Below, piece after piece: positions 27,808-62,880 of a stretch of 64,000 bases of DNA (its first letter is position 1; each line of letters begins with the position of its first letter). Origin of the DNA: Phoenix dactylifera (taxonomy: Eukaryota > Streptophyta > Magnoliopsida > Arecales > Arecaceae); NCBI RefSeq assembly GCF_009389715.1, contig NC_052397.1, positions 16,564,129 through 16,628,128 on the forward strand, in the 5' to 3' direction. A program made the position numbers and the translations under genes. Under the pieces are notes generated by a model. It was not told the origin of the DNA. It was given only the letters and a program-made list of their open reading frames with translations, and ran no database searches.

Positions 27808-28293
27808 ATTGGGGGTTGTACCCTTTCACACCAGCTATTTGACTTCAGCAGGATTGGCTCACGCGGTTTCAAATTTTCTCCTATCCATCTTACTTATCTC
27901 TCGCATGAAAGTAAAATGCGTCCCATGCCTAACGCTGTTGAATACATCAAGTATAAATATTGTTCTCCAAGCATAACCGGCTCCAGAACTTTGTATTTTA
28001 ACCGCGTAAATTACCTGTGCCAGAAGAAAAAAAAAAAAGCACGTAAATTTGTATAATTTATAATAACCAAATAAAAGAGTATCCACGTTCAACTTTACCA
28101 TCTCTGTAAGCCGAAGCGGACTTCCAAGTCCCTTCATCTCTCTGTAATACTCAACGAGCGAAACGCAGAAGCTCCCAGATCTTACTCTCCGCTCTTCTAC
28201 TCAACGATGGCGGCCGCTCCCGTTCTCTTCCCACCGAAATAGAAAGCGAAAGAGAGAGCAAGCAGGCTGTTTTTTTCTCCGGTCTCTGATGAG

Positions 28294-31268: not shown

Positions 31269-31873
31269 ATCAAAGTAAATTGCACTATGGTTGATGGATG
31301 ACTTAAAACTTATTTTATATTTTGCACGAGCTTTAAATGGTGCTTTGATAGTTTCTTTCAGTGTCTGATTTCTCCTGATTATCTTTTTCCCCCAACTCCA
31401 GATTCTGTGTTAAGTTTTAGCCTTATTTTGAACCTATTCTTTTTTATGAGCATGTCCTGTTCCCTGCCAATTTCATTTTGCTTCCTCCACATGCACATTT
31501 ATACTCAGCACCTCCATTCTCTTAATTTTGCAACTAGTGCATTAGGAAGCCTGTTTTCTTTACAAATTACTTCAGTCGTTAGTCATTACACTTGATTTTA
31601 AAATCTTTGACTTCTCTGATGTCATTCGATTCTCCAGTTTGCTTTCCTGGTACAAGAAGTGAGAGCATCAGTATAACCCCTATAGATCAGCTTTTGCATT
31701 TCAACTCAGTTACAACTATACGAAGGGAATGCATTTTTGTAGCAAAAAAAAAGAGGGGAGGGGGGAAGAAGAAAGACAGAGAGCAAACTGAAAGATTATT
31801 TTATTCTTAGTGTTGGGTATCATTGTCTGGCTGCTCCATATCAGATCCTTTATTACAGATTATGTATGAGATT
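31269..31873. repeat. Duplicated block A, copy I
   Basis: Non-coding sequence matching 55918-56550 base for base over most of its length, with scattered differences. The match starts at TCAAAGTAAATTGCAC and ends at ATTACAGATTATGTATGAGA. It is followed at 31870-32110 by a local tandem repeat of about 170 bp (GATTATGAGAATAGGATTAG and GATTATGAGAATTGGATTAG). Confidence 0.85.
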
Positions 31874-32546
31874 ATGAGAATAGGATTAGCGTGTTATCTT
31901 CACATGTTTTCTTTGGCTCATGCTACTCTATGAATCTCGTGCTGATTTTTACTTCTTTTTCACTTGATGTTTTGAAGACATAGTTATGATGAATTCTAAT
32001 AGTTTGGTCCATGATTATGCTCCCAACTTGTAACAGATTATGAGAATTGGATTAGTATATTATCTTCATATGTTTTCGTTGACGCTTGTCAATCTATGAA
32101 TCTCATGCGCCACTTTTCATCCTTGGAAGTCTATATAATATAAAGAATTATCAAGCTTTTTGGCAATACGTTGTTAATAATGCTTGAAGGTACATTGGTA
32201 CAGAAAGAATGAGTTATTTCAATGAAAACCGAAGTCTAATTTTGTGAAATGATCCTTGAAGTCCTAGTTTGCAAATCGAACTTTTTGGTGTTCGTTGCCA
32301 GACCTTTAGTACCTTTTCAATTAAATTATATAGATATAGGCTAACGGGCCCCACCAGATTTCTCGCTCTGCAACGGACCATGGTCGTCCGTCAATCCTTG
32401 ATTGCGCGAATCGTAAAGCCGCGGGCGAAGCATCCAAAGTCCTAGGCTGCGTCGACTTCGAACGGCTGCCGGTATACTCGTTCGTCCAGGTATTGGATTC
32501 CCAGGAGGATTCGAACTCCTATTGCCAGGAAAGCGTCACTATCTGT

Positions 32547-32554
32547 TATATATA
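32547..32554 (+). promoter_or_regulatory. TATA box of F-box gene 1
   Basis: TATATATA lies 56-63 bp upstream of the ATG, consistent with a very short leader. The corresponding place in the two other F-box genes reads CCATATAGAGG, a weaker element, although the region upstream (CGGACCAT, GCGCGAATC, TCCAAAGTCCTA, TTCGAACTCC) is recognisably shared. Confidence 0.55.
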
Positions 32555-32585
32555 GAAGGTCCCCCTGCCACTTGCTTCTGCCAAG

Positions 32586-32885
32586 TCTTCATCTTCTCTC
32601 TTCATCGACATGGAATCCAGGAGCAAGAAAGCCCGGAGGAGCGAGAGCGTAGCAGCGAGGTCTTCATCTTCTCTCTTCATGGACATGGAATCCAGGAGCA
32701 AGAAAGCCCGGAGGAGCGAGAGCGTGGCAGCGAGGTCTTCATCTTCTCTCTTCATCGACATGGAATCCAGGAGCAAGAAAGCCCGGAGGAGCGAGAGCGT
32801 AGCAGCGAGGTCTTCATCTTCTCTCTTCATCGACATGGAATCCAGGAGCAAGAAAGCCCGGAGGAGCGAGAGCGTAGCAGCGAGG
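32586..32885 (+). repeat. Fourfold 75-bp tandem repeat in the F-box gene 1 N-terminus
   Basis: Four near-identical 75-bp units, each carrying its own in-frame ATG (32610, 32685, 32760 and 32835). As 75 is a multiple of three, the frame stays open. Each unit encodes 25 residues with a basic SRSKKARRSES core that looks like a nuclear localisation signal. Only one or two bases differ between units, so the expansion is recent. Confidence 0.95.
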
Positions 32886-34100
32886 TCTCACGTTCCACCT
32901 GACATTCTTCTCTCCAACATCCTCCCCCGTCTCTCCTTCAAGTCTCTGACCAGGTTCGAGTCTGTGTGCAAGAGTTGGCGTGCCCTGATCACCGAGGATT
33001 CCCTCTTCGCCGCCGATCAGTCCCTGCACCCTTCCCCCGCCTCCTCTGGCTTTGTCTACCTCGGCTCCTCCGGTCTCGAGTTCCTTTCAGCGCCGGGCAC
33101 CCCAGTTGGCGTTCCCCGCCCCTCCCTCGAAATCCCTTTTCATGCCTATAGCCTCAAGCTCGTGGCCTCTACCAACGGTCTCCTCTGCTGCCTCATCCGC
33201 GCTCCGGCCTCCAACTTTTTTAATGATGGGGGTCCCTGCTTCAACTTGCTCTACGTTCTCAATCCCGCAACCAGGGAGTCCCATCTCGTTCCTGCGGCCC
33301 AAAGTCACAGCAGCTTCTTCATCGGGCTAGCCTTCGACCCCTCCAACTCCCCGAGCCGTTACGCTCTGGTCTGCCTCCGTCGTTGCCATGGCGTTATCGA
33401 GGGGTGTCTCAAGACCCAGCATTGGTTTCATGTCTTCTCCTCTGAGACCCGCGAGTGGGTCGTCTCGAGCCAGACGGTCCTCGTCGATGATTTCGTGTCG
33501 GGCGAGCCCACAGCGGTGTTTGCTGGAGGGGTCTTGTACTGGGATTGCATTAGCTATCTGATATGGTTCGACCCCTCCAAGGACCTTGCAGGACGGACGC
33601 CACTGCCGGAGGACCCATCGAGTGCGGGCGTGCATTGGATCGGCGTATGGGAGGGTCGAGTGACGTGCACTCAAGCCTGGGACGGGGAGGTAGAGGTGTT
33701 CGTGATGACGAACGGGAACGGCAGCAGCGGGAACTGGGTGAGGAGGCACCGGGCAAGCTTCGAAGCAATGGTCGGAGGGAATCCGGAAGTGTTCGCTAAA
33801 TTCTGCCACCCCATGAGGCTGAGGAGCGGGAGACTATGGGACCGGCTGATTTCACGGTGGTTTCTGCGGCCGCTGGCGCTCGACGGAGGAGACAAGCTCT
33901 ATATAGCGCTGAAGCCCATTGCGTGGATGCCGAACGAGAAGGAAAGAGTGCTGTGTTACGACCTGAGAACGGGGGAGATGACATCGATCAGCGACGGGAT
34001 CAGGCTTATACCATTTGAAGACCGAGTATTCTCCTACCACAACAGCATGGTTAGACTGCCCGAACTATGCTCGGAAGCGGTAAATACAACCACATCATGA
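32610..34100 (+). CDS. F-box protein with F-box-associated region (F-box gene 1)
   Basis: Intronless, 496 residues from the first of four repeat-borne ATGs; starting at the fourth would give 421. Residues 1-94 are the 25-residue repeats with KKARR. The F-box follows at about 94-140 (PPDILLSNILPRLSFKSLTR, FESVCKSWRALI). The remainder is an F-box-associated, beta-propeller-like region with STNGLLCC, VLNPATRES, GLAFDPSNSP, FAGGVLYWDC and CYDLRTGEMTSIS. F-box proteins are substrate receptors of SCF ubiquitin ligases and bind SKP1/ASK through the F-box; the substrate is unknown. It is a diverged paralogue of the genes at 34.8 and 57.8 kb. No counterpart exists between blocks A and B of copy II. 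Confidence 0.88.
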   Translation: MESRSKKARRSESVAARSSSSLFMDMESRSKKARRSESVAARSSSSLFIDMESRSKKARRSESVAARSSSSLFIDMESRSKKARRSESVAARSHVPPDILLSNILPRLSFKSLTRFESVCKSWRALITEDSLFAADQSLHPSPASSGFVYLGSSGLEFLSAPGTPVGVPRPSLEIPFHAYSLKLVASTNGLLCCLIRAPASNFFNDGGPCFNLLYVLNPATRESHLVPAAQSHSSFFIGLAFDPSNSPSRYALVCLRRCHGVIEGCLKTQHWFHVFSSETREWVVSSQTVLVDDFVSGEPTAVFAGGVLYWDCISYLIWFDPSKDLAGRTPLPEDPSSAGVHWIGVWEGRVTCTQAWDGEVEVFVMTNGNGSSGNWVRRHRASFEAMVGGNPEVFAKFCHPMRLRSGRLWDRLISRWFLRPLALDGGDKLYIALKPIAWMPNEKERVLCYDLRTGEMTSISDGIRLIPFEDRVFSYHNSMVRLPELCSEAVNTTTS

Positions 34101-34516
34101 ATGTTGGGTTGTGCATGATTTGCTCTCGGGTGCAGCTCCGAGTTCAATCTCGTATACATCTTGAGAATTTAGCACGGTTGTAGTAGTTGGTGCAGAGCGT
34201 TTCAAGTGGGGATTTGGCTTTTTGGGGACTGGCTGCTTCATATTATCCTCTTCTGTAGGACATGAAATTATGTATCCACTTTGTGAGCATTATATAATAT
34301 CTCCAAGTAATTTGTTTCTCACATATCATTCCCTGTGAATCTCATGCACCATCCTTCTCTTCTTTTCACCCCAATGTTTTATATTGAATTTTATTTGGTC
34401 GTTAGGTTTTATTCTCATCTTCCATAAAAACACACCCCAAAACAATGACAGTTACGTTCAAATAATCTTTTCCCAGAAGTGATGCTAGATTGCGAAGGAT
34501 GTGCCGTTAATATCGA

Positions 34517-34517
34517 A

Positions 34518-34567
<50 letters not shown>
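34517..34567. repeat. (GA)n microsatellite upstream of F-box copy I
   Basis: About 50 bp of GA/AG repeat interrupted once by GG. The copy II counterpart lies at about 57503-57539 and differs in length. Confidence 0.9.
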
Positions 34568-34570
<3 letters not shown>

Positions 34571-34822
34571 TGTCCGCTCTGAAACGGACCATCGTCCTCC
34601 GTTTACCTTTGGTAGCGCGAATCCTAAAGACGTGGGGGGAAGTATATCCAAAGTGATCAGAATTAGTGTCGATCAGGGCGTCGGATTCTCCGGCCCTTTC
34701 CTAGAGAAATTCGAACTCCCATTACCAGGAAACCCAAACAATCTACCATATAGAGGGGTCCCGGCCGCTACGACTATAGCTACTTAATTCGTTCGTCTTC
34801 AGGCTTTCGACCTTCTCTCTTC

Positions 34823-36048
34823 ATGGACATGGAGGAATCCAGGAAGAACAGGTCCCCGAAGAACAACAGCGGCAGCGGCGAAGTAGCGAAAGGCTCTCGC
34901 GTTCTATATGATGATCTCTTTCGGTTCAACATCCTCCCAAGGCTGTCCTTCAAGTCCCTCTCCAGGTGCAAGAACGTCTGCAAGGCATGGCACGGCTACA
35001 TCTCCAACAGCCCGCTCTTCGCCCTCGAGCAGTCCCGCCGCCCTTCCCCCACCTCCTCCGGCTTCGTCTTCCTCAGCTGGCGCGGCCTCGAGTTCCTGTC
35101 CCCCCCGGCACCCCGATCGGCGTCCCCGACCCCTCCCTCTCCATCCTCAGCTCCCATCGCATCAGCCTCGTCGGCTCGACGAACGGCCTCCTCTGCGTCT
35201 ACGTCCACGCCCTCTACTTCAACTTCCTCTGCGTCCTCAACCCGGCTACCGAGGAGTACGAGCCCATCCCTCAAAGCAAGCGCCGTCGCTATGGTGTCGG
35301 GCTGGCCTTCGACCCCTCAACCTCGCCGGCTCATTATTCCTTGGTCTACCCCAAACGGGATAACGTCGAGGGCGCTGTCGATGAAGTCGAGTACCAGTTC
35401 GTGGTCTTCTCTTCTTGTACGGGCGAGTGGGTGCAGTCCAGCCAGAAGGTCGCCGTCGGTGGCTTCCGGTGGCGTCATGGGACTCCAGTGTTCGCTGGAG
35501 GAGTCTTGTACTGGGACTGCGTCGAGTATTTGATATGGTTCGACCCATGCAAGGACCTCGCAGGCTGGAGGCTGCTGCCAGCAGCGGTATCAGGACGAGC
35601 TCGGCATGCTCTCGGGGCGTCGACGGAGGGTCGGCTGACCTGCGCGGTTGTGGTGGGGGATGCGGTGGAGGTCTACGTGATCGAGGATGGCAGCCGTAGC
35701 AGCGAGGCGTGGTCGAGAAGATATCGAGTGAGCTTGGCGCAGATGGTTGAAAAGAATCGGCATGTCCTCGCCGAGTTCTGCAACACAATGCGACTGAGGG
35801 GCAGGAGCCTGTCGGAGCGGCTGTTCTCGCGGTGGTTCATGCAGCCATTGGCATTCGAGGGAGGGGACGAGCTTTACCTCTGGGTGAGGGCTGGGAATAG
35901 CATAGAGAAGAAAGTGAGGGTGCTGCGCCACGACTTGAGAACAGGAGAGGTGACACTGATCAGCAGCAATGTGAGCTTCGCGCTGGAGGAAGACCAGATC
36001 TTCACCTACCACAATAGCATGGCTAGATTACCAAATTGGTTCAACTAG
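34823..36048 (+). pseudogene. F-box gene copy I, frameshifted
   Basis: Near-identical to the intact gene at 57817-59043. The C run after GAGTTCCTGT is 7 long here and 8 in the intact copy, so the frame shifts at about residue 93. The remaining 310 codons stay open in the +1 frame with only two visible amino-acid differences (FAGG preceded by V instead of A; LAQM instead of LEQM). The F-box itself (ILPRLSFKSLSRCKNVCKAW) precedes the shift. A single homopolymer base could also be an assembly error, in which case the gene is intact. Confidence 0.75.
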
Positions 36049-36194
36049 CGAGATTTCCCCGATGTGTATTCCCGCTGTAACTCGTTAATAAAATTCCATT
36101 ATGGGACCACTGCACTTTTTGTTAATTTTCCGAATATAATACCAGCCTCAATAATAAAAACTGATTTAGTAACGAGTTCAGTGTGCCCTTGGGT

Positions 36195-39100
36195 ATTACT
36201 TTCATCTTCTACGGATGGCTACGTTTTTGCTTTTTGCTGGATATATTTTCTGCACTATTTAACATTTGGTTAATTCTACTATGTGCTAGATCACAGAAAC
36301 CATGAGTGAAACAGCTCTTGGTAATATTCACGTACAGTTGACAGGAATTTAATAGATTAATTTTCTTACTTGGCAACTGCTTCACTCTACTTTAGGAATT
36401 AGGACTCGATAATATATCCTTTCAAGACTACTCAGAATATCAATTTGAGCCCTCAACTCAGATAATCTTAATTATGGAACAATTTGCATTATCACACTAC
36501 AAGCCCTCATTCACCTAAACCTTCCCAACTTTACAATGGTAAATTATTATCAATGTTTTTTTTTAAAAAAATATTATCAGTGAAAAATGGGTAAAAAGAG
36601 AAAAAAGGATCCAGGGATATTCCTCATTCAAAATAATAGCCATATATTTGCATCAAAGAGAAAACAGGTAATTCTAACACTGTCCTGACCATGTTTGCAT
36701 AAAAGAGAACACAAGTAATTCTAACACTGTCCTGAGGACCATCCCCCACCCCACCCCACCCCACAAGAAAAACAATAAGAAGAAACTGTTAGATGTTACA
36801 TCAGTACTTTGCTGACGCTTAATAGTAGATATCAGCTGTAATCAACATTAAAATTTTGAACAGATTGTAACAAAACGATAATGTAGGTACAAAACAAAGC
36901 AACGATAGCTCCTTGTTATATGAGTTGCTTTTATTGACTGACTGAAAAGAATGAACATTTTCCCTAAGGACCTGGTAGCTCAGTAGATTCATCATAGCAC
37001 CAAGAGATGCAGGAATCCCACAAGAAACACTTGTAAGTTTGAATGAAAAATAATCCGCATAAGAAGATATTATGAGACAGAATATAAGATCGAAAAAGGT
37101 AACAAATTATCCAGACTGGTATGCTTTGAAGAGCACCATGCAACTAACCTACAAATTTGGGAAAAGAATAATCAAATGCCTTTGTAGGAGTTGATGGAAG
37201 AATATCAAAGTAGAAAAATTTTAGAACATATCCAGGAAGAGCAGCAGCAGGCAGCAAGTCATAGCACTGTTTGGATAACCTGATGCAATCCAACCAGTGT
37301 AGCACCTCTGCATTTGGATCCCTCTCCACCACCACATCCCTCACTGTAATCTGTAGCATCCCCCTATAGATGGTGATTCTCCCCGACTCTAACTAGCTCC
37401 CCCAGCTGAACTATCTCAGATTGCTTCAGTGTCATCTCGGCCATAAGTTCGAGATTAGATGAACCACCATGGGAAGTGGGGTAGTGGTAATTGAGCCAGA
37501 GGATGCAAGGGATGCACCCACTCCCATCGTCCACCAGGAACCTTAGAAATTTATTCTTGTGCTCACGGCTCACCACCATGCCTACAGTTTCAGCACAAGA
37601 TATAGGCCTGCCCTTCCGGGTGAAGTAGGGAGGGTTTGAGGGCCAGACAGTTAAGGAGAGGAGATCAGAAGCCATAAGCTTCACATGAACAATTTGGATT
37701 GGATCCATGGTAGTAGCCTTGATTTGTTCAGGATCTGAGACAAAAATCAAGTTCTTATTACAATAATGAGATATATTCGCAACCATATACATAGATATAT
37801 GTAGGGATGTTAAGAAAGAAGAATTCAGAACAATAAAGAAGAAAAAAGAGAATGAGATAGAGAGGGTTGGACTGCCCACTGTTGGAACTACATGGACAAC
37901 CAAAGTAAATAAATATCTCTTTTAATTAAATGCAAAAAAAGAGAAATAAGAGAGAGTTCAAATTTAGAGCAAGAAATCAAAACTATCAAATCACCTAGAA
38001 GAAAATATTTATTTATAACCAAAGTACAATTAAAAGTTTTGTTCCACAAAACACAGAGTGATGCAAGGGATAAAAGAACTTGGCAAGTCAATGCAGCATA
38101 AACCTTCTGCGAAATTTGTTAATTAGAATTATCCATAAGTTTGTACATGCTAAAAGCTAATGCAACACATGAGAGTGGGCAATCAGCTAAACAAAGAAGT
38201 AGTTGATACAATTTGATTCATGATCGAGAAGCCAGAAATTAAAAGAAAAGAGTGAATAAACAAGAGCGTTGTCTTCCGTGTAACCGCTTAGAACTCAAAC
38301 CCGAAAAGTAGAACAATCAAGCGGACAACCCAAGTGGTTAGTACTTACTGTTATAACCATTAATTAGATGAAAGTGAAGAAAAAAAAAACAATGGATAAA
38401 TTATAGTTTAAATTTTCCATAATTCATTGCCCACTCTTTTCCAAAGATCAATTTTTTACTAAGATGCTGAACTTTGACCCTTTCATTTTTAAGCAAAGAG
38501 AGAAGATGAATTCCTAAACCCCAAAGCTATTCCCCCAATTCCCAAACTCAAAGGAAAATAGAGAAGTTGGGTTACATGAAATCTTTAGAGAAAAATCTCC
38601 AAATACAGAAACAAATAAATCAACTATCTAAATCTCATGATTTACTAGCATATATTAAACTACATATATAACCCAGAAGACAACTGTCTCCCAAAATGGT
38701 TATTTAGATAGTGCAATGGAGGAGATAATACCTTATCCGATGCTCTCGGAGGAAGATTTGCAAAATCCAAGGCATTCTCGCAGGCGAAATCCAAAGCTCA
38801 AATTTGTGAAAAATGGGGAAGAATGGGAAGAGCAATTGCGTCAATAGCGGAAACCTTTTACCACGTTTTCTAGCCCGACCGCGGCCAGTCGGACCGAAAA
38901 CACTGCAAACTGGCCCATGCCCCGGTCCGATTCTCTCTCTCTCTATCTTTGTCGGTTGCTAATCAAGCAAACCAACTTCTAATTCAGAGTCTTGTAAAAG
39001 TTTTAAACAATAGAAGAATAATTTTATTTTATCCGTTCTAAAGGTTAGTTCTCTTTTGATCAATCATTTAAGGATGAATATATTTCAGAAACTTAAGGAA

Positions 39101-39270
39101 TTAAAGAATTCTAGTTTATTAAAATTACGACCCTTCTCACGTAAACAACCCCTAAATTAATTTATTGAGGAGTTGAAATATAGGTAGCCTCCATATACTT
39201 ATAAATGTATAAAAGGATTTATATCAAAAAATATGGTCATATTTTTAGCATCTTTCAAACATGATATTTA
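36195..39270. repeat. Duplicated block C (STN1 block), copy I
   Basis: Matches 51690-55912 in pieces. Copy II carries extra segments at about 51745-52105, 52195-52390 and 52550-52985. Divergence is several percent, clearly more than in block B. Includes a decayed STN1 copy and its 5' leader. Confidence 0.85.
37144..37708 (-). pseudogene. STN1 (CST complex) copy I, disrupted
   Basis: Starts MDPIQIVHVKLMASDLLSLT at 37708 and follows the intact copy until ELVRV (about residue 113). Two bases are missing there (CTCCCCGAC against CTCCCCCTGAC), shifting the frame to an early stop after GENHHL. The rest of the gene is still readable in another frame (MLQITVRDVVVERDPNAEVL). An internal stretch coding for NPHQDGSDRK in copy II is also missing. 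About nine amino-acid differences from copy II occur in the first 113 residues. The leader region (about 38700-38850) lacks the telo-box segment found in copy II. Confidence 0.8.
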
Positions 39271-39760
39271 TTTATTTTTCAATATTTAAGTATTTATTTT
39301 AGTTATTTTAATTATTTAGATATGTTTTTGATCAATGTTCGACCAAGTGACCTCTTAGTGAGGCCAAAGGCCGGCCTATCCAGCCACGCAAATATTTTGT
39401 TCAGTAGTTTCTCAATGTTATGATTATGGTTTGAGATTTTTTCTAATTGAGGTGGCTAGCATGTATCAAGTGACCAAGTTTGAAAGCATAGGAGGAACTT
39501 CAAAAAAAATGAAGTGCTACAAGGTTTATTTAGGATTAGGAACAATAAAAGACAATAATATCCTAACTTGATAAACTATTAAATGGGTTTGAAAACTGAA
39601 ATCAAAACTTTATCAAATTCGTTTGACGGTATAAGTCGCTTGTATTTTGATATATTTATTTTTTGAGTAAAGTTTTAATTTATTATTTTTTAAAAAAGAA
39701 TGTGTAGAAAAGTTTAATAGTTGGGTGAAGCTCCTAAAAATAAACTCCACATCTCTAAAT

Positions 39761-39806
<46 letters not shown>

Positions 39807-40747
39807 AAAACTGTCAAATGATCGGGCTTCTTAGAAATAAACCTGACATCTTTATCGTTTTAAAATTTATTAGATTATTTGTATCTATAATCTATCAGAT
39901 CATTTATGTCTATCTTATAATTTATGATTTTCTCACTTAAGTCAAAATTTTATTAAAATCCATCTGATACTTATTTGTAAATTAAGCCGCACGCATGGTA
40001 CACATGAGAGTTCCACCCAGGTATAGAAGTAGAGTTGTAAATCGGATTGGGATTTAGATTTTGACAAAATTAAGCCTCATTTTGAACCCAATCCTCTGCC
40101 ACCACACATCAAACTTTAAATCCTTCAAAATAGTGATGTGATATATGCTTTTGAAGAAGATTCCCATGTGTTTCTCGTGTCCCCTAATTTTTCATCAGTT
40201 CTCCCTCTGATTTCATTATAAGGAATTTATCTTTTTCACTTTTCTATCCATTTATGTAATTGTATGTACATTGATCTTGACTAGAACCTAGACTCTGCTT
40301 CCCATCCTAAAAGTTGAATGCTGCTAAACTTTGCTTGTGGTTTAATTGGATTTCACAATCTCTCCCTCTCTCTCTCTATGTGTGCGCTCTCTCTTTCTAT
40401 TAGTCTTTAGGCTCTTCGTATCATGCATGGATCGACCGAATGGCCTAAATATACTTCACGTAACTTACAACATTAATATGGATATATATATATACACACA
40501 CATAGAGAGAGAGAGCGGGGCTTTAGAGTTTTTCACATTCCTGTTTCAGTTACAATATATGACGTAACCGTTGCGTCTCAAAAAATCTAACTACTCATTA
40601 ACCACCCGAAGGCATCCCTTCATGTCATGGGAGACCTTCCCCCCCCTCTCTCTCTTTGTATGTCTTCTTATCTTATCCAACCGTTAGTCTTATAGAATCC
40701 AACATTAGATAGAGAGGAGTAGAGCAAGAACCACGCTCCCAACATTT
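39271..40747. other. Copy I sequence between blocks C and D, no gene seen
   Basis: AT-rich sequence absent from copy II. It includes a perfect (GA)n microsatellite at 39767-39803 and a pyrimidine-rich CTCTCTC stretch at about 40362-40395. The right end is the promoter of the pectinesterase gene. Confidence 0.55.
39767..39803. repeat. (GA)n microsatellite
   Basis: About 18 perfect dinucleotide units in otherwise AT-rich DNA. Confidence 0.9.
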
Positions 40748-40805
40748 AATACCATCATCCGTTTCCACCCCTTCAACGCCTCCACTCTCAATAACTTCCA
40801 CACTC

Positions 40806-40811
40806 TATAAG
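40806..40811 (+). promoter_or_regulatory. TATA box of the QRT1-like pectinesterase gene
   Basis: CACTCTATAAGACC lies 56-61 bp upstream of the ATG. The duplicate at about 59215-59230 reads CACTCGATAAGACC, so the TATA core is lost there. Confidence 0.5.
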
Positions 40812-40866
40812 ACCCAGAAGAATGCCAGCATCTAAAGCAGTGCGTTAGAGAGAGAGAGAGAGAGAG

Positions 40867-45823: not shown

Positions 45824-45900
45824 CTACAGAATACAAACTGACAAACATAAAATCTAGCGAGACAGGTGTACCAAATTAAATAAACCTTCAATCAATTCCT

Positions 45901-51689: not shown

Positions 51690-53615
51690 TCTATGTTCTA
51701 TGGATGGCTATGTTTTTGCTTTTTGTTGGATTTTTTTTCTGCGAAAAAACATGGCTGGAAAAAAGTGGCTGGAGAAAAAAGGGCTAAGCGTACTCCAAGC
51801 CAATCCTTTCTTTGATAGAAAAATCCACTTTTGTCAACCAGGACAGACACATCCTTTCCATCTTTTCGTCGAGGCCTTTCATAGGCGCTTTTCTTCAGTC
51901 TCTCGAAGCCTTTCCTATTCGGAGCTCCTTGCTACAAAGCAAACGTACAAAAACTAAAGCAGCGGATTCAGTAGCATCAGCTGCAATAAGGGCTCGGTGT
52001 CATTATGTTAGCTCACCTCCTTTTCAGGGAGAGCTAATGCTTATGCTTGTTGGGTATTTTGGTTTGACGCTGCTTCACACCCAAAAAGAAGCTAACATTT
52101 TTTTGGGTTAATTCTACAATGTGCTAGAAACCAAGAGTGAAACATCTCTTAGTAATATTTATGTACATTTGACAGGAATTTAATGTCTTAATTTTTTACT
52201 TGTGGCATGTCTTTACTTTGATCTGATATCTCATTCTTTGGCATCAAACAAATATGGGGGCAAATTGGCATCGAAGCAGTGCTAATCCAACCACGAGGGC
52301 AGCTCTACCCTTCATAATCTTAATCATATGTATTCTTCTTATTTTCTCATGCACTTAACTTCTCACATTATATCGATCCCATTCTCCAGGTCAACTGCTT
52401 CACTCTACTTTAGGAATTAGGACTTGATACCGTATCCTTTCATGACTACTCAGAATATCAATTTGAGCCCTCAACTCAAATAATCTTGATCATGGAACAA
52501 TTTGCGTTATCACATTACATGCCCTCATTTGCCTAAACCTTCCCAACTTTCTTATTTGAAGTTGCTCTGGTGGCTTTCATTTGAATAAGTAACAAGATGT
52601 CTTGACATAGGTGGTAGTTGTGAAAAATGAAATGAGGTGGCTTGAACAACATCAAAGGAAGGCCTGGCAAATGGGGATCGATAATACCAACCCCAAATAA
52701 CTAGGACAAGCTTGATAATTATGGTTATGCTTATCGAGCTGTCAGAATACCGTGCTCCCACACTGCCAAAATGCTAAATCATTGTCTTTGTCAATAAATA
52801 ACATTCGTTATGTTGGTAAATAACTTCCATACTACATTGATATCCTTTAAAGGGGCTCGAACCATCTTTTCCCTTTGCCCTACCCTTTTTCTTGGTGTTC
52901 TTTGCCTCTTGCTAGCAGTATAGAGTGCAATCGGTAATAAGAGGTATTACCTATTCATCATGGTACATGGCTTCATAAGCTTCACAATTTACAATGGTAA
53001 ATTATTATCAATGTTTTTTTCAAAAAAATATTATCAGTGGAAAATGGGTAAAAAGAGAGAAAAGGATCCAGGGGTATTCCTCATTCAAAATAACAGCCAT
53101 ATATTTGTATAAGAGAGAAAACAGGCAATTCTAACACTGTCCTGACCATATTTGTATCAGAGAGAATACAAGTAATTCTAACACTGTCCTAAGGAGAACC
53201 CCCCCCCCCCCCAAAAAAAAAAAAAAACACCCCAAAAAAAAAAAAAAGAAAAAACTGGTTGGTGTTATATCAGAACCTTGCTGACGCTTAATAGCAGAAA
53301 TCAGCTGCAATCAACATTAAAATTTTGCACAGATTGTAACATAACCATAATGTAGGTACAAAACAAAGCAATGACATCTCCTTGTTATATGAGTCGCTTC
53401 CATTGACTGACTGAAAAGAATGGACATTTTTCCTAAGGACCTGGTAGCTCAGTAGATTCATCGTAACACCAGGAGATGCACGAATCCCACAAGAAACACT
53501 TGAAAGTTGTTTGAATGAAAAATAATCCATGCAAGAAGAGATTATGAGACATAATATAAGATTGAAGAAGGTAACAAATTATCCAGGCTGGCGTGCTTTG
53601 AAGGGCACCATGCAG

Positions 53616-54218
53616 CTAACCTACAAATTTGGGAAAAGAATAATCAAATGCCTTTGTAGGAGTTGATGGAAGAATATCAAAGTTGAAAAATTTTAGAATC
53701 TTACGGTCAGACCCATCTTGATGTGGGTTCAGAACAGATCCAGGAAGAGCAGCAGCAGGCAGCAAGTCATAGCACTGTTTGGATAACCTGATGCAATCCA
53801 ACCAGTGTAGCACCTCTGCATTTGGATCCCTCTCCACCACCACATCCCTCACTGTAATCTGTAGCATCCCCCTATAGATTGTGATTCTCCCCCTGACTCT
53901 AACTAGCTCCCCCAGCTGAACTATCTCAGATTGCTTCAGTGCCATTTCAGCCATAAGTTCGAGATTAGATGAACCATCATGGAAAGTGAGGTAGTGGTGG
54001 TTGAGCCAGAGGATGCAGGGGATGCACCCACTCCCATCATCCACCAGGAACCTCAGAAATTTGTCCTTGTGCTCACGGCTCACCACCATGCCTACAGTTT
54101 CAGCACGAGATATAGGCCTTCCCTTCCGGGTGAAGCAGGGAGGGTTTGAGGGCCAGACAGTTAAGGAGAGGAGATCAGAGGCCATAAGCTTGACATGAAC
54201 AGTTTGGATTGGATCCAT
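53616..54218 (-). CDS. STN1: CST telomere-capping complex subunit STN1
   Basis: One coding exon, 200 residues, start MDPIQTVHVKLMASDLLSLT. The series PISRAETVGMVVSREHKDKF, LRFLVDDGSGCIPCILWLNH, GELVRVRGRITIYRGMLQIT and VVVERDPNAEVLHWLDCIRL matches plant STN1 and covers its single OB-fold (about residues 35-135). STN1 works with CTC1 and TEN1 on single-stranded telomeric DNA and in lagging-strand fill-in (known). The upstream in-frame ORF extension is leader sequence: an acceptor (TTGGCTCAG|ATCC) lies at 54245/54244, 26 bases before the ATG, and the first, non-coding exon ends at 55364 (ATAAG|GTATTA). It is about 40 residues longer at the C-terminus than I recall for Arabidopsis STN1, with the extra PAAALPGSVLNPHQDGSDRK region unverified. 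Confidence 0.85.
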   Translation of the reverse strand: MDPIQTVHVKLMASDLLSLTVWPSNPPCFTRKGRPISRAETVGMVVSREHKDKFLRFLVDDGSGCIPCILWLNHHYLTFHDGSSNLELMAEMALKQSEIVQLGELVRVRGRITIYRGMLQITVRDVVVERDPNAEVLHWLDCIRLSKQCYDLLPAAALPGSVLNPHQDGSDRKILKFFNFDILPSTPTKAFDYSFPKFVG

Positions 54219-55500
54219 GGTAGTAGCCTTGATTTGTTTAGGATCTGAGCCAAAAATCAAGTTCTTATAACGATAATAAGAAATATTCTCAACCATATAC
54301 ATAGATATATGTAGGGATGTTAAGAAAGAAGAATTCAGAACAATAAAGAAGAAAAAAGAGAATGAGATAGAGAGGGTTGGATTGCTCACTGTTGGAACTA
54401 CGAGGACTTCTTTTTTTCTTCTGTGCAAAGCATAAAAAAGCAATTAAATGCAAAAAAAAGAAAAATAAGAGGGAGTCCGAATTTAGAGCAAGAAATCAAA
54501 ACTATCAAATCACCTAGAAGAAAACATTTATTTATAACCAAAGTACAATTAAAAGTTTTGTTCCACAAAACTCAGAGTGATGCAAGGGGCAAAAGAACTT
54601 GGCAAGTCAATGCAGCATAGACCTGCTGTGAAATTTGTTAATTAGAATTATCCATAAGTTTGTTAAAAGCTAATGCAACACATGAGAGTGGACAATCAGC
54701 TAAACAAAGAAGTACTTGATACAATTTGCTTCATGATCTAGAAGCCAGAAATTAAAAGAAAGAGTGAATAAACAAAAGCAAACATGCTACGAAATGTCAT
54801 CAGAGTGCAGTCTTTCGCGTAACCACTTACATCACAACCCCGAAAAGTAGAACAATCAAGTGGACAACCCGAGTGGTTAGTACTTACTGTTATAACCATT
54901 ACTTAGACGAAAGTGAAGAGAACAAAAAACAATGGATAAATTATAGTTTAAATTTTCCATAATTCATTGCCCACTCTTTTCCAAAGATCAATTTTTTACT
55001 AAGATGCTGAACTTTGAACCTTTCACTTTTAAGTAAAGAGAGAAGATTAGTTAATGTAAACTTTTCTTTTCTAACAAAGGCCGAGTGGTTTTGCCTCCCT
55101 CTTCAAAAAAATAAAATAAAAAGTAAGTAAAGAGAGAAGATGAACTCCTAAACCCCAAAGCTATTTCCCCAATTCCCAAACTCAAAAGAAAACAGAAAAG
55201 TTGGGTTACATGAAATCTCGAGAGAAAAATCTCCAAATACGGAAACAAATGAATCAACTATCTAAATCTCATGATTCACTAGCATATATTAAACTACATA
55301 TAACCCAGAAGACAACTGCCTCCCAAAATGGTGAATTAGATGGTGCAATGGAGGAGATAATACCTTATCCGATGCTCTCGGAGGAAGATTTGCGAAATCT
55401 AAGGCATTCTTGCAGTCGAAATCCAAAGCTCAAATTTGCGAAAAATGGGGAAGAAGAGGAAGAGCGATTTTGATGTTCTATCTCTAAAACCCTAGGATTT
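54219..55500 (-). promoter_or_regulatory. STN1 split 5' leader with telo-box
   Basis: A 5' UTR intron (55363 to 54245) separates a non-coding first exon (from about 55490 or beyond down to 55364) from the coding exon. AAACCCTAG at 55487-55495 is a telo-box near the probable transcription start. The copy I leader lacks about 33 bp containing it. Confidence 0.5.
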
Positions 55501-55917
55501 GCGTCGGCAGCGGGAACCCTTTACCACGTTTTCCGGCCCGACCGCGACCAGTCGGACGGGAAACGCTGCAAACCGGCCCATTCCCCGGTCCGGTTCTCTC
55601 TCTCTACCTCTGTCGTTTGCTGATCAAGCAAACCAAATTCTAATTCGGACTCTTATAAAAGTTTTAAACAAATAGAAGAATAATTTTATTTTATCCGTTC
55701 ATCTAAAGGTTAGTTCCCTTTTGATCAATCATTTAAGGATGAATATATTTTAGAAACTTAAGGAATTAAAAAATTCTAGTTTACTAAAATTGCAATCTTT
55801 CTCACATAAATGTAATTTGTTTAGGAGTTGAGATATAGGTAGCCTCCATATACTTATAAATGTACGAAAGGTATCATATCAAAAGTTTTGGGCAAATTTT
55901 TAGTATCTTTCAAATGC

Positions 55918-56396
55918 TCAAAGTAAATTGCACCATGGATGATGGATGACTTAAAACTTATTCTATATTTTGCACGAGCTTTAAATAATGCTTTGATAGT
56001 TTCTTTCAGTGTCTGATTTCTCCTGAGTATCTTTTTCCCCCAGCTCCAGATTCTTTGTCAAGTTTTAGCCTTATTTTGAACCTATTCTTTTTTATGAGCA
56101 TGTCCCGTTCCCTGCCAATTTTATTTTGCTTCCTCGGCATGCACATTTATACTCAGCACCTCCATTCTCTTAATTTTACAACTAGTGCATTAGGAAGCCT
56201 GTTTTCTTTACAAATTACTTCAGTCATTAGTCATTACACTTGATTTTATAATCTTTGACTTCTCTGATGTCATTAGATTCTCCAGTTTGCTTTCCTGGTA
56301 CAACAAGTGAGAGCATCAGTGTAACCCCTGTAGATCAGCTTTTGCATTTCAACTCAGTTACAGCTATATGAAGGGAATGCATTTTTGTAGCAAAAA

Positions 56397-56433
<37 letters not shown>

Positions 56434-56550
56434 GGGTTGGGGAAGAAGAGAGACACAGAGCAAAGTGAGAGATTATTTTATTCCTAGAGTTGGGTTTCAT
56501 TGTCTGGCTGCTCCATATCAGATCCTTTTATTACAGATTATGTATGAGAT
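55918..56550. repeat. Duplicated block A, copy II
   Basis: Counterpart of 31269-31873. The main change is expansion of a G run (56403-56432) where copy I has AGAGGGGAGGGGGGAAG. Confidence 0.85.
56403..56432. repeat. Poly-G tract of 30 bases
   Basis: Thirty consecutive G residues, preceded by an A run and followed by TGGGTTGGGG. It can form G-quadruplexes. The true length may differ because of sequencing or assembly error. Confidence 0.8.
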
Positions 56551-57370
56551 CCTTTTTTTTCATACATGGACAACCATGATGAGTTTAAATTGGAGGGTTA
56601 TGGGTGGTGTGCATCACATACATGTTGATACAGGACTATCTACAAAATAGAATTTTGCCAACAAAATCTTCTTTAAGATAGATATATTTATCTGGCTAAA
56701 TTACAATCATGAAATGCTATAAAGAGAAGCAAAATATAATTCTCTTATATTAATGGTGCCATTGTCTAGTTAGAATGGCTACTGAGATAACTATTATAGA
56801 AAAGAAATAAAAAAATTATAGAAGAGATAAAAAATCTGTCTCACTATGTATCGCTGCAAATTCTATTGAAACCCTACAAGGGGAAAGAGAACTTTGCAAA
56901 GTTCAATTTGCACATTTTGATAGTTGATCTCTTTTTCTAAATTTAGTTCATCCTACGCTTGAGAAATTATGTTTCCATTCAACAATTTCTTTTTATGAGA
57001 AAAATCTGCTTGCTAGCCTTTGCGACAACTATTATTTTGTCTCAATTGATATAAAACAGAAAATGGTTTCGATCATCACATATCACAATCACAATATCTG
57101 GTGGATGGTGAATGAATATCATGGTAAAAATCTTAGGATTCTCTCTCAATTATAGCTAACTTCTATTTGGCAGCCATCTTTTTTTTTCCTGGGGGATGTT
57201 AGGTTTTCTGCTCAATCTTTTTATAAAAAAACACATGAAAATAATGGCACTTTGGTTCAAACAATCTTTTCCTTAATCTAGAGTCAAAAAATTTTAGGAT
57301 TCTCTTTCAATCACAGCTAACTTCGAGTTGGCACTAATCCTTTTATAAGTTTAATTGGATCCTACTAGAG
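56551..57370. other. Copy II spacer between blocks A and B
   Basis: AT-rich, no gene. In copy I the corresponding interval (31874-34387) contains F-box gene 1; no trace of it is visible here. TCAAACAATCTTTTCC near 57258 resembles the TCAAATAATCTTTTCC word just upstream of block B, suggesting a small local repeat. Confidence 0.5.
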
Positions 57371-57496
57371 TTTTATTTGGTTGTTAGGTTTTATTCTCAT
57401 CTTCCATAAAAACACACCCCAAAACAATGACAGTTACGTTCAAATAATCTTTTCCCAGAAGTGATGCTAGATTGCGAAGGATGTGCCGTTAATATC

Positions 57497-57502
<6 letters not shown>

Positions 57503-57539
<37 letters not shown>
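57503..57539. repeat. (GA)n microsatellite upstream of F-box copy II
   Basis: Uninterrupted GA repeat; the interrupted copy I counterpart is longer. Confidence 0.9.
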
Positions 57540-57541
<2 letters not shown>

Positions 57542-57816
57542 TGTCCGCTCTGAAACGGACCATCGTCCTCCGTTTACCTTTGGTAGCGCGAATCCTAAAG
57601 ACGTGGGGGGAAGTATATCCAAAGTCCTACTCCGCGTCGACTTCGGACGATCAGAATTCGTGTCGATCAGGGCGTCGGATTCTCCGGCCCTTTCCTAGAG
57701 AAATTCGAACTCCTATTACCAGGAAACCCAAACAATCTACCATATAGAGGGGTCCCGGCCGCTACGACTATAGCTACTTAATTCGTTCGTCTTCAGGCTC
57801 TCGACCTTCTCTCTTC

Positions 57817-59043
57817 ATGGACATGGAGGAATCCAGGAAGAACAGGTCCCCGAAGAACAACAGCGGCAGCGGCGAAGTAGCGAAAGGCTCTCGCGTTCTA
57901 TATGATGATCTCTTTCGGTTCAACATCCTCCCAAGGCTGTCCTTCAAGTCCCTCTCCAGGTGCAAGAACGTCTGCAAGGCATGGCACGGCTACATCTCCA
58001 ACAGCCCGCTCTTCGCCCTCGAGCAGTCCCGCCGCCCTTCCCCCACCTCCTCCGGCTTCGTCTTCCTCAGCTGGCGCGGCCTCGAGTTCCTGTCCCCCCC
58101 CGGCACCCCGATCGGCGTCCCCGACCCCTCCCTCTCCATCCTCAGCTCCCATCGCATCAGCCTCGTCGGCTCGACGAACGGCCTCCTCTGCGTCTACGTC
58201 CACGCCCTCTACTTCAACTTCCTCTGCGTCCTCAACCCGGCTACCGAGGAGTACGAGCCCATCCCTCAAAGCAAGCGCCGTCGCTATGGTGTCGGGCTGG
58301 CCTTCGACCCCTCAACCTCGCCGGCTCATTATTCCTTGGTCTACCCCAAACGGGATAACGTCGAGGGCGCTGTCGATGAAGTCGAGTACCAGTTCGTGGT
58401 CTTCTCTTCTTGTACGGGCGAGTGGGTGCAGTCCAGCCAGAAGGTCGCCGTCGGTGGCTTCCGGTGGCGTCATGGGACTCCAGCGTTCGCTGGAGGAGTC
58501 TTGTACTGGGACTGCGTCGAGTATTTGATATGGTTCGACCCATGCAAGGACCTCGCAGGCTGGAGGCTGCTGCCAGCAGCGGTATCAGGACGAGCTCGGC
58601 ATGCTCTCGGGGCGTCGACGGAGGGTCGGCTGACCTGCGCGGTTGTGGTGGGGGATGCGGTGGAGGTCTACGTGATCGAGGATGGCAGCCGTAGCAGCGA
58701 GGCGTGGTCGAGAAGATATCGAGTGAGCTTGGAGCAGATGGTTGAAAAGAATCGGCATGTCCTCGCCGAGTTCTGCAACACAATGCGACTGAGGGGCAGG
58801 AGCCTGTCGGAGCGGCTGTTCTCGCGGTGGTTCATGCAGCCATTGGCATTCGAGGGAGGGGACGAGCTTTACCTCTGGGTGAGGGCTGGGAATAGCATAG
58901 AGAAGAAAGTGAGGGTGCTGCGCCACGACTTGAGAACAGGAGAGGTGACACTGATCAGCAGCAATGTGAGCTTCGCGCTGGAGGAAGACCAGATCTTCAC
59001 CTACCACAATAGCATGGCTAGATTACCAAATTGGTTCAACTAG
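57817..59043 (+). CDS. F-box protein with F-box-associated region (F-box gene copy II, intact)
   Basis: Intronless, 408 residues. The F-box is at about residues 30-75 (FRFNILPRLSFKSLSRCKNV, CKAWHGYI). It is followed by an F-box-associated region with STNGLLCVYVHALYFNFLCV, LNPATEEYEP, GLAFDPSTSP, FAGGVLYWDC, YLIWFDPCKDL and LRTGEVTLISS. It is a probable SCF ubiquitin-ligase substrate receptor (family knowledge). Compared with F-box gene 1 it has one N-terminal segment (MDMEESRKNRSPKNN) instead of four repeats. This copy has the eight-C run that keeps the frame open. The GC-rich coding sequence in AT-rich surroundings is typical of monocot single-exon genes. Confidence 0.9.
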   Translation: MDMEESRKNRSPKNNSGSGEVAKGSRVLYDDLFRFNILPRLSFKSLSRCKNVCKAWHGYISNSPLFALEQSRRPSPTSSGFVFLSWRGLEFLSPPGTPIGVPDPSLSILSSHRISLVGSTNGLLCVYVHALYFNFLCVLNPATEEYEPIPQSKRRRYGVGLAFDPSTSPAHYSLVYPKRDNVEGAVDEVEYQFVVFSSCTGEWVQSSQKVAVGGFRWRHGTPAFAGGVLYWDCVEYLIWFDPCKDLAGWRLLPAAVSGRARHALGASTEGRLTCAVVVGDAVEVYVIEDGSRSSEAWSRRYRVSLEQMVEKNRHVLAEFCNTMRLRGRSLSERLFSRWFMQPLAFEGGDELYLWVRAGNSIEKKVRVLRHDLRTGEVTLISSNVSFALEEDQIFTYHNSMARLPNWFN

Positions 59044-59260
59044 CGAGATTTCCCCGATGTTTATTGCTGCTGTAACTCGTTTATAAAATTCCATTATGGG
59101 ACCACTGCACTTTTTGTTAATTTTCCGAATATAATACCAGCCTCAATAATAAAAACTGATTTAATACCATCATCCGTTTCCACCCCTTCAACGCCTCCTC
59201 TCTCTATAACTTCCACACTCGATAAGACCCAGAAGAATGCCAGCCTCTAAAGCAGTGCGT

Positions 59261-59261
<1 letters not shown>

Positions 59262-59315
<54 letters not shown>
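59262..59315. repeat. (AG)n microsatellite replacing the pectinesterase start
   Basis: About 27 AG units. Copy I has only about nine units ending GAGATGGACTTC; here the junction reads GAGAGGGACTTC. Confidence 0.9.
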
Positions 59316-59318
<3 letters not shown>

Positions 59319-60206
59319 CTTCTTTGTTTTCAGTCTTTTTGTTGTGGCTTGTTGCAGGGTCTTGAGTTGTCGGGAACCCAGATGCAGTACAAGGATTTCA
59401 TTTCTTGGGATGACTTCAGTGCAGAGAATTACTCCGGGAACTTCAACTTTAAGGACGGGGCTCACAGTCGGGTCATCCTGGTGTCGCAGGATGGGTGTGG
59501 AGATTCGACGACGGTGCAGGGAGCGGTGACTATGGTTCCAGATGGTAATAGGGAGAGAGTGAAGATATTTATTTCTTTGTATATAGGTGAGTGCGGAGAA
59601 GCCAGAAGACCGTTATGGGATTATGCAATGTACTTGATGATCTTTGTATCCTTTTTTTGTTTTTTTTTCTATAGCTTGAGTGTTTCATCCTTTTTAAGAG
59701 ATTAGGATGCTATTACGTAATGTTTTTCATCAGTCCTCATTGTTTATACCTTCAAAACTCGGGAAAAAAAAAAGAATGTTATCCGTTAACTTTAGGTCCT
59801 CAAGCTAGCTAGAAATGTATTTAGGTTTATAAGTGAGCGCTGGTCATTTGGTCAGCGAGTTCTGTTTTGGCCAGTAGTTTACTCATTTTTCTTTTCTTTT
59901 AGCTTGGTTTGAGTGTTTTTACTTTGTTTTGTTCTAGGCTTTTTAAATTTGTGATGTGCGACTCTTTTCTCCGTAGTAGCTTGCATTGTCAAACTGTTCT
60001 ACTTTTTTAACTCCTTCCTTTGTGTCAAAAACTTGCAAAGCAGCCTCCCAATTGAGAAGCCTTTGTTAATTTCTGTATTTCATTAGAGCACGGTCTCATT
60101 GCCTGGAGGTTCCTCTTTTCCACATATTGACATCACAGAACTTGGATTCTTGCAGAGAGAAGGTGATCGTTTCCATAACGAGGCCTTATATTTCATTCAT
60201 GCGTTT
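59315..60206 (+). pseudogene. QRT1-like pectinesterase copy II, degraded
   Basis: Exon 1 is recognisable ([39 protein letters not shown]), but the start codon is lost (ATG to GGG next to the AG run), one base is missing after TTGAGTTGTC, and the exon 1 end is altered (TTTATTTCTTTGTATATAGG against TTATTTCTCCAGGAGTATAT). Exon 2 begins at about 60156 (GAGAAGGTGATCGTTTCC) and breaks off near 60200. The next matching base in copy I is at about 43144, beyond the stop codon, so exons 2 (most) to 5 are deleted. The TATA core is changed as well. Confidence 0.85.
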
Positions 60207-61340
60207 CCATAACCAAGTCCATACCAATTGATGATGATGGTTGCCAATCGACGAGATCATGCATCGGCCATCATAATGCTATCTTTTGCTGACATCAACA
60301 AGGGACTTCACAATCTCATGCAGCATAGTCCAAACCATTCAGTGTGATGAACGAAAATGCTCATCATGGGTCTGTTAACCATTTCAATCAGAGTAGTTGT
60401 AAGTCCGGAAGAAAGAAGGAACAGAGCATGGATGCTGTGACACCCTTTCTAGTGTAGGTAATAACATCAGTATGGAGCCTTTCCTTAAAAGAAGATAAAG
60501 AATGAAGCCATGTGGCAGGACAAATGATTTGTAGAAGTAAATGAATGCCAGGGACTTTATTGCAAGACTTCAAATGGAAGGGGGAATGGTTCGAAGGTGA
60601 AAAAGACCATCAAACACCACTACCACTACATCTGTGACCAGAGAAGTAACATAGGTGATAACTTCACTGACCATAACATCCAGTCACAGCTGCTGAGCCG
60701 CTAATGCAAACATCCAACATACTACTACAGTGGACAAAGGCTTTCGGGATAAAGATTGTGGCAGCTTACAAGGTTCCACAAGTTCAGATAAACTTCACCT
60801 GTCTACAGATAACAAATTGGTCTCTGTTGTTCTTCAGACATTTTCCTAGTTTAGCTACATAGTGCTGCAGATAGGGCCAAAAATGATGAGATGGCACCAA
60901 GGATCACATAGAGAGACGAATACATAAACTGTCAACAGAAAACAAGACATAATTAGTTCCATATATAAAATTACCATGAAAAATTAATGTAGGCTTGGAT
61001 TATATTCCCATAACACGGCGCACCCATGACAGGGGCACCTGGAAGCACTAGTGGCACAATTGGAACAAAGCTGGAAGAGGGGCCATTCTTACCAGATACT
61101 CAAGGCCTAAATCTCGAATTAAATTGCTAGATAAGATGGCAAAAGCTTAAACTAAAAAAGTTACAAAGAACGCCAAGTCTTCAGTCAGTTCACCTCCATT
61201 ATTGTCCGAATTACAGTGCAGTTAATTTGGCCCCAGAAAGTAACATCATCTTGATTATATATGATATTCTATACGCACACGTTTACATACAAAAAAAATT
61301 AAAGCAGGCCTGGTCCAACTTCATTTGCCAGCCTTCAACT

Positions 61341-62800
61341 CTAGTCACCACCTATGCCTGCCTTTTCCTCAGAGTCTTCCTCAGAACTTTCATCCCTCAG
61401 CCGCTTTCTTGAATTAACTCGCTTCATGTTTACATCAGTTTTATCACTCAAGCTGGTTTCTGCTTGTTTATCTTCTTCATTTGAATTGGCTTGTGTGGTG
61501 ATGACATCTTGGTCTGACATTGCAGAACTACCTGATTCCACCCTCTTAGGGAAGAGTGAGGAGGAAGTTACCTTTGCTCCATGGCTAACTGAAGATATTG
61601 CTGACAAGATATCTGGCTTAGCTACGATATCGACCCACTGGTTCCCCACCCAGTCTTTAGAAATTCTTAATTTTTTTCTCTGGCATATTAAGAAGACATC
61701 TTCACCTGAATCATATGAAATTCATATATCATTTCTCCCGCTCTGAGCTGTCAATTGAGCTCTTAAAAACAGAACTAGAAATTGCAGCTCTGAGAGCCAG
61801 TTGAACAGTCCCAGACAAGCATTTGATGCATATTACTTATCAAAATCAAGCATATGTTGCAAGAAGACAGCAAGTGGTCGATAAGAAAATTCCAATATTG
61901 ATCCGTTGAAATTTTGATTGCATATCATGGTTGGTTTGTATATATTTGTTAAAAACTAAAAGGTTATGGAAGGTTTTTGTTCATCTTTATGTTATGTACT
62001 TTCATCTAAGATTCCAGGAATTTTCCTTGGTGAGTGATAAAGGTGCCTAATTAGTTCACATCCTACACTAGTACCTTGTCTGCATGAGCCAAATCATCAG
62101 AGCCAAAAAGGAGGATTTCTTTTTTAGAATTATGTGGTACCTCATCTGAAAATACAATTTAAATGGCAAAGGTACTAACAACTCCAGACAAGGTTCCTGA
62201 GTAAAATAAATAATGCATTTCTACATAACTGGTTAAAGGTATGCGCTGCATGCAAACCTCTATTCACATAAGTATTGTTCTTTTCTCCTGAATGACCCTT
62301 TGTTTTTTTTTTTTTTTTGGCTAAGGCAATGACCCTTTGTTAGAAATCCTTTTTCTTACTAATAATTTCAAATCACCATGTGAGAAGGGACACTATGGGA
62401 GACTGGAAATCAATAGCACAAGCAGATGTGTCTCACTACCATACTCACCCCAGATTCTCAACTAAAACATAGAATGGGTGGCAGCTAGAACAGAACAACC
62501 ATATGAACAAAAATGTCTTAAAAAGGGGGAATAACAGTGTAGCAACTCAAAGTTCAAACAAATGAGGAAGCACATACCTGGAAAATATACTTGCCGACTA
62601 TCATCTCCACAGCTGTCTGTTCCAACCACAACCCCTTCCCACCAGCCGTCATTCCACCATGCATCCACCGGGGTTCCATTAAGAAATGCAACACTATCGA
62701 GAAAATGATCACATGTGGGATAAGGACGAATTGTTGGGCGGCCTGAGCATCTCATGCCTAATTTATCAGGAGCCGCTGGTCTGAAGGCAGGGATCCATTC
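61341..62800 (-). CDS. Agenet/Tudor-like domain protein, C-terminal exons
   Basis: Two exons read on the minus strand: 62800-62578 (acceptor TGTAG|GAATGG, donor CCAG|GTATGT) and 61705-61341 (acceptor TTCAG|GTGAAG), joining in phase. The first encodes [28 protein letters not shown] and [19 protein letters not shown]; the second begins [20 protein letters not shown], then [19 protein letters not shown]. It ends in a Ser/Asp/Glu-rich tail with [16 protein letters not shown]. The WW.DGWWEG.V ... VYFPGE ... LR.S.DW pattern fits the plant Agenet domain, as in Arabidopsis proteins that pair Agenet with BAH (for example At1g68580, from memory); such proteins read chromatin. About 195 residues are visible. 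Upstream exons were not found up to base 64000 and may lie beyond the edge, or this may be a gene fragment left by the duplication. Confidence 0.65.
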
Positions 62801-62880
62801 CTACAGCATACAAACTGACAAACATAAAATCTAGCGAGACAGGTGTATCAAATTAAATAAACCTTCAATCAATTCCTAGA

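Follow-up and report, generated by a model that had tools for sequence, protein, structure and literature searches.

Gene pairs split between the pieces of a probable patchwork tandem duplicate in the date palm genome

Within a 64,000-nucleotide window of the date palm (Phoenix dactylifera) assembly (G000:C6:16564129-16628128, the whole stretch that was analysed), F-box, STN1, pectinesterase (PE) and Agenet-type genes are each found in two copies. An initial annotation of this DNA placed them in two gene sets, at 31.2-46 and 51.6-63 kb (copies I and II), and interpreted their split into intact and broken members as reciprocal loss after one segmental duplication. Our analysis points instead to a patchwork tandem duplicate whose sole working genes probably lie in different pieces. 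All positions are window coordinates, including those of a right extension past the window end. Searches covered one assembly (773,078,369 bases in 2,391 contigs), in which an outgroup region on contig C15 and a near-allelic contig, C1009, were used for polarising events. Literature searches, none of them aimed at this locus, turned up no title on it.

Results

One duplicated unit with ancestral outer flanks

Self-comparison revealed two sets of homologous blocks, 31270-45901 and 51679-62878, in direct orientation throughout (Table 1). The order in copy I is B, F-box, A (with STN1), y, PE and Agenet, and in copy II it is A (with STN1), B, F-box, PE and Agenet; the two annotated gene sets are thus recovered as homologous blocks but not as collinear copies. 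When A is left aside, the homology is bounded by one pair of outer ends on each side, 31270/55918 and 45901/62878; these delimit a left (S1) and a right (S2) copy of one unit.

The outgroup region, C15:3136002-3164208, aligns piecewise, in reverse collinear order, with positions 28,239 to 69,168 of the window and the extension to its right. Its noncoding distance from the window's contig, C6, is 0.253 under the Kimura two-parameter model (five stretches pooled; about 25% diverged), and it is probably the partner of this region from a palm whole-genome duplication. The alignment continues through position 31270, with 133/173 identical bases to the left and 73/99 to the right, and through position 62878 (519/641, then 125/158 and 211/257). 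The old left flank is therefore the one next to S1, and the old right flank the one next to S2. Direct orientation, shared ends, and left and right flanks kept by the left and right copies are features of a tandem segmental duplication. A circular intermediate (a cut-and-permuted circle) was considered for the changed block order and dropped after C15 had shown which flanks are ancestral.

Table 1. Features of the locus in window coordinates
Feature	Start	End	Strand	Remarks
S1, left unit copy	31270	45901	+	14,632 bp; left border ancestral
S2, right unit copy	55918	62878	+	6,961 bp; right border ancestral
Stretch between S1 and S2 (z and STN1 block A-II)	45902	55917	+	10,016 bp; outside the unit
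B block in S1	31270	31872	+	matches 55918-56550 in S2; 30/603 sites differ
y, between STN1-I and PE-I	39260	40743	+	otherwise without long matches in the assembly
PE-I	40867	43068	+	exons 40867-41144, 41515-41704, 41812-42018, 42461-42696, 42921-43068; 352 amino acids
PE-II remnant	59314	60211	+	keeps exon 1 and the first part of exon 2; remainder deleted
STN1-I	37147	37708	-	disabled by 2-bp and 36-bp deletions; open for 114 amino acids only
STN1-II	53616	54218	-	open, 200 amino acids; only uninterrupted STN1 found in the assembly
F-box A	32610	34100	+	open, 496 amino acids; S1 only; above Pfam cut-off
F-box B-I	34823	36049	+	frame shifted by one base, C7 run at 35100
F-box B-II	57817	59043	+	open, 408 amino acids
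Agenet-I	43661	45901	-	3' fragment only, with further deletions
Agenet-II, last two exons	61341	62800	-	61341-about 61721 and 62577-62800; gene runs past the window end

The near-allelic contig and the stretch between the unit copies

C1009:1-23244 is collinear with 50,576-73,872 and starts inside z. It differs from C6 by 132 substitutions across the first 12.4 kb, and the difference is patchy: 0/1,103 in z, 21/598 in B, 55/1,199 in one stretch of A and 93/7,604 in the right flank. Thirty of 39 insertion/deletion (indel) events fall within 52,162-55,067, 27 of these being 1-2 bp long, and this stretch of C1009 was taken as poorly polished. We treated C1009 as an allele of locus II, although it may be a very recent separate copy.

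The crowding of indels raises the question of an assembly artefact, with two haplotypes joined in series or with frameshifts that stem from sequencing errors. The account of the matching published assembly describes PacBio RSII reads from an outcrossing species with ~14x short-read polishing (PMC6794320). The F-box lesion lies within a C run, and copy II contains a run of 30 G at 56403-56432 where C1009 lacks 35 bp, possibly an assembly error. An artefact is nevertheless a very improbable account of the locus, as the copies are unlike in block order and in per-block divergence, C15 agrees with S1 at the left border and with S2 at the right border, C1009 is a near-allelic partner of copy II that starts inside z, and deletions of 1.58 kb and 36 bp exceed the size of read errors.

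In a search of the assembly for the source of z, the 41 matches from the best 40 of 284 candidates were all to a dispersed repeat or to the C1009 partner, and a search for the source of y gave three short matches only. Several overlapping open frames lie in z at 46100-47350, and the two frames tried had no Pfam match. Short dispersed repeats lie at 48638-48804 and 55048-55124 and look to us like short interspersed nuclear elements; the latter is present as an insertion in A-II when compared with A-I. A-II also contains a patchwork at 51740-52092 that is absent from A-I. Three of its pieces match C2390 (715,001 bases), a contig that we take from its size to be mitochondrial, at 98-99%, and its last 80 bp match several other contigs.

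Pectinesterase was lost from S2 after the duplication

PE-I has five exons with GT/AG borders and an open frame that matches the Pfam Pectinesterase model (1.3e-71). The QRT1 label is that of the initial annotation; our comparison places the protein in the Pectinesterase family. NCBIfam hits, to an F-box-associated domain and to distant bacterial pectinesterases, all fell below the cut-offs of their models. In PE-II, 11 bp stand in place of the equivalent of 41560-43140 (1,581 bp), so that most of exon 2 and exons 3-5 are gone. This deletion is present on both C6 and C1009. The lost start codon and a 1-base deletion in exon 1 are found on C6 only; C1009 has the start codon and an open exon-1 frame. 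PE thus clearly died in S2 after the duplication and is the sole gene for which this is clear, and its annotation as intact only in copy I holds.

PE-I reaches at most 60% per matched piece against the other pectinesterases of the assembly (116 matches; best 115 of 163 candidates), and a DNA search of the assembly recovered exons 3-5 of this lineage in PE-I only. On C15, a translated search of 30 kb found only a degenerate exon 1 (G000:C15:3149660-3150053). Since the C15 pectinesterase is also cut to exon-1 remnants, PE lost its 3' exons in two places. A ratio of nonsynonymous to synonymous rates (Ka/Ks) for PE exon 1 (0.68) was set aside because the last codons were misaligned.

Between the F-box and PE blocks, S1 holds the STN1-I and y segment. 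This segment could be an insertion into S1 that followed the duplication and created a 5-bp ATTTA repeat, or S2 could have lost it through a deletion at 5-bp microhomology. In S1 the segment is flanked by ATTTA at either end, S2 has ATTTA once, and STN1 DNA has also been copied to another site on this chromosome; these observations fit an insertion. The C15 context next to PE fits the S1 junction better than the S2 junction, if weakly (anchored scores of 3 and 0, with 6.4% of 3,000 background places reaching 3), and we regard insertion as a serious but not the favoured possibility. Neither y nor the S2 F-box block resembled the 1.5 kb preceding the C15 pectinesterase beyond the level of shuffles (scores of 14 and 16; 60 shuffles each, maxima 18 and 17).

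The right breakpoint truncated the Agenet gene

The Agenet exons in both copies correspond to the 3' end of a gene with BAH and Agenet domains. The 5' exons that encode these domains lie at about 65,979-67,160, to the right of the breakpoint and beyond the window end; S1 therefore only ever received a 3' fragment. Agenet-I is fragmentary, as had been annotated, but it was cut by the breakpoint, and the window contains only the 3' end of the gene in either copy.

The STN1 pair lies partly outside the unit and looks older

STN1-II finds its best match in Protein Data Bank (PDB) chains of CST complex subunit STN1 (3.3e-12), with an OB fold as expected of an STN1 orthologue, and scores 17.4 bits against the Pfam Stn1 model, below the cut-off of 21.5. 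A protein search of the assembly (7 matches) recovered, besides STN1-I and STN1-II, pieces on C1009 and one fragment on the same contig. This third fragment (L032, G000:C6:16401973-16402482) is 510 bp long, lies ~160 kb left of the window in the opposite orientation, and has no other homology to the window in its surroundings (20 kb). Over ~500 bp, 12 substitutions are unique to STN1-I, 11 to STN1-II and 8 to the third fragment. At the sites of both STN1-I lesions, the 2-bp deletion that shifts the frame and the 36-bp deletion, the third fragment is undeleted like STN1-II, and both deletions are therefore derived. The Ka/Ks for the pair, 0.29 (186 codons, with 14 skipped; 11 synonymous and 11 nonsynonymous changes), indicates no more than constraint during part of its history.

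Noncoding sites differ at 211/2,388 positions (8.8%) between the A blocks versus 107/2,548 (4.2%) in the unit (Fisher p 3.6e-11). Scaled to the C6-C15 distance, these values are about 0.37 and 0.17, the scaled figures resting on a slightly different unit pool (4.1%, with 228 Agenet exon sites counted as noncoding). The STN1 pair thus looks older than the unit duplication; rate differences are possible, C15 having no A block.

F-box repeats share derived changes across loci

The F-box B copies differ at 2/1,227 coding and 11/548 noncoding sites of their block. The lesion is a C7 run at 35100 in copy I versus C8 at 58094 in copy II. A DNA search of the assembly for homologues gave 5 matches, confined to S1, S2, C1009 and F-box A. 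The start of F-box A consists of four in-frame copies of a 75-bp repeat (32585-32888), which are 98% alike. The initial annotation had an intact F-box gene only in copy II; F-box B-I is indeed frameshifted, but by one base of a C run, and S1 contains an additional F-box gene with an open frame.

At four substitutions and a 23-bp deletion, C1009 has the state of S1 rather than that of C6 copy II. The reverse holds at nine substitutions, an 11-bp indel and the C7/C8 base, where it matches C6 copy II and differs from S1. A further four substitutions occur in C1009 alone. F-box A retains the 23-bp stretch and a glutamate at codon 306, and the 23-bp deletion and E306A are therefore derived. These two derived changes are common to S1 and C1009, and the 2/1,227 coding differences contrast with 107/2,548 in the rest of the unit. 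Conversion between the loci is the best account of this sharing pattern, in a sample of two locus II sequences (C1009 covers locus II only) and one locus I sequence. It is also possible that C6 copy II regained the 23 bp from F-box A.

Discussion

The locus is probably best described as a patchwork tandem duplicate. A 14.6-kb unit with the B block, the F-box genes, STN1-I, PE and the 3' end of the BAH/Agenet gene would have been duplicated head to tail. The right breakpoint would have fallen inside an intron of the Agenet gene, leaving the whole gene only in S2, joined to the old right flank, and 10 kb of DNA that include an older STN1 copy would have come to lie between S1 and S2. S2, which is without the STN1-I/y segment and F-box A, would later have lost most of PE through the 1.58-kb deletion. 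The STN1 gene in S1 would have been disabled by its two deletions while STN1-II remained open, and the 1.8-kb F-box repeats would have been kept alike through gene conversion. We infer the order of these events, the origin of the 10-kb stretch and the expression of the open frames.

Several observations weigh against this account. S1 and S2 are not adjacent today but 10,016 bp apart. Divergence within the unit is uneven (5.0% in B, 4.6% in the PE part, 3.4-3.5% in the Agenet part), and the STN1 copies differ by only 4.1-4.9% over ~500 partly coding bp, near the unit value. STN1 and F-box had no match on C15 (30 kb examined), so that the original order and the rate of block A cannot be checked there. 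Lastly, the STN1-II frame of C1009 is broken twice, in the stretch dense in 1-2 bp indels, which speaks against STN1-II being open on both haplotypes. The annotation of STN1 as intact only in copy II stands for C6, where STN1-I carries both deletions and STN1-II is open, and is put in doubt by C1009.

Reciprocal loss would require one segmental duplication that produced two complete four-gene sets, from which opposite members were then lost. STN1-I and PE-II are broken where STN1-II and PE-I are open, and F-box B-I is frameshifted, as it would predict. We find it improbable as a whole. The F-box and PE pairs do stem from one duplication, but STN1-II is outside the unit and more diverged; Agenet-I never had its 5' exons; the F-box lesion is a single homopolymer base, and conversion is still homogenising the copies of that gene; and the copies are not unlinked, being on the same contig ~20 kb apart. 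Moreover, if each of four pairs lost one of its copies at random, a split would arise with a chance of 7/8 = 0.875 (87.5% of random cases), and the split pattern was therefore weak evidence from the start. The proposal is partly supported: the working copies are indeed divided between segments, and PE died in S2 after the duplication, which is loss in one direction. It fails for Agenet and very likely for STN1, and is unproven for F-box. Breakpoints, inserted stretches and homopolymer bases can easily make a split of open and broken genes resemble reciprocal loss, and a single collinear outgroup region settles much of such a question.

The defective recombinants foreseen in the initial annotation do follow from the map as a risk, but the route is unequal crossover inside the array. 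We worked out the deletion geometry for six block pairs, and each deletion loses STN1-II, PE or both. STN1-II is removed in five of the six (B, F-box and the three PE/Agenet pairs). PE-I is wholly removed by crossover at the B, F-box and A pairs, and crossover inside the PE pair would, by our own reading, leave PE without 3' exons, so that PE is lost in four of the six. The best substrate would be the conversion-active 1.8-kb F-box repeats, with ~23 kb deleted and both STN1-II and PE-I gone. This result is one of geometry alone; no such haplotype was seen. It is conceivable, though rather unlikely, that the array is locked by the split of its sole working genes, recurrent deletion alleles being purged and the duplication kept since its loss is harmful. 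If so, palm haplotypes without both STN1 and PE should recur.

There is no new system at the locus, and its genes are ordinary plant genes. In rice, the DGS1/DGS2 loci occupy chromosomes 4 and 7, and two species have lost opposite copies by reciprocal loss (PMC5555463). The date palm locus is similar in having a duplicated segment with one gene copy disabled and another kept, and unlike the rice case in that the copies are in cis, ~20 kb apart on one haplotype, and most pairs are not the complete products of one duplication. As in interlocus conversion between tandem paralogs, excess identity is confined to the F-box block and derived changes are shared across loci, a comparison made here with individual sequences. 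A plain tandem duplication would have neither a 10-kb stretch with an older STN1 between its units nor a gene truncated by the breakpoint, but in its direct orientation, shared outer ends and ancestral opposite outer flanks the locus resembles a tandem segmental duplication with later fractionation.

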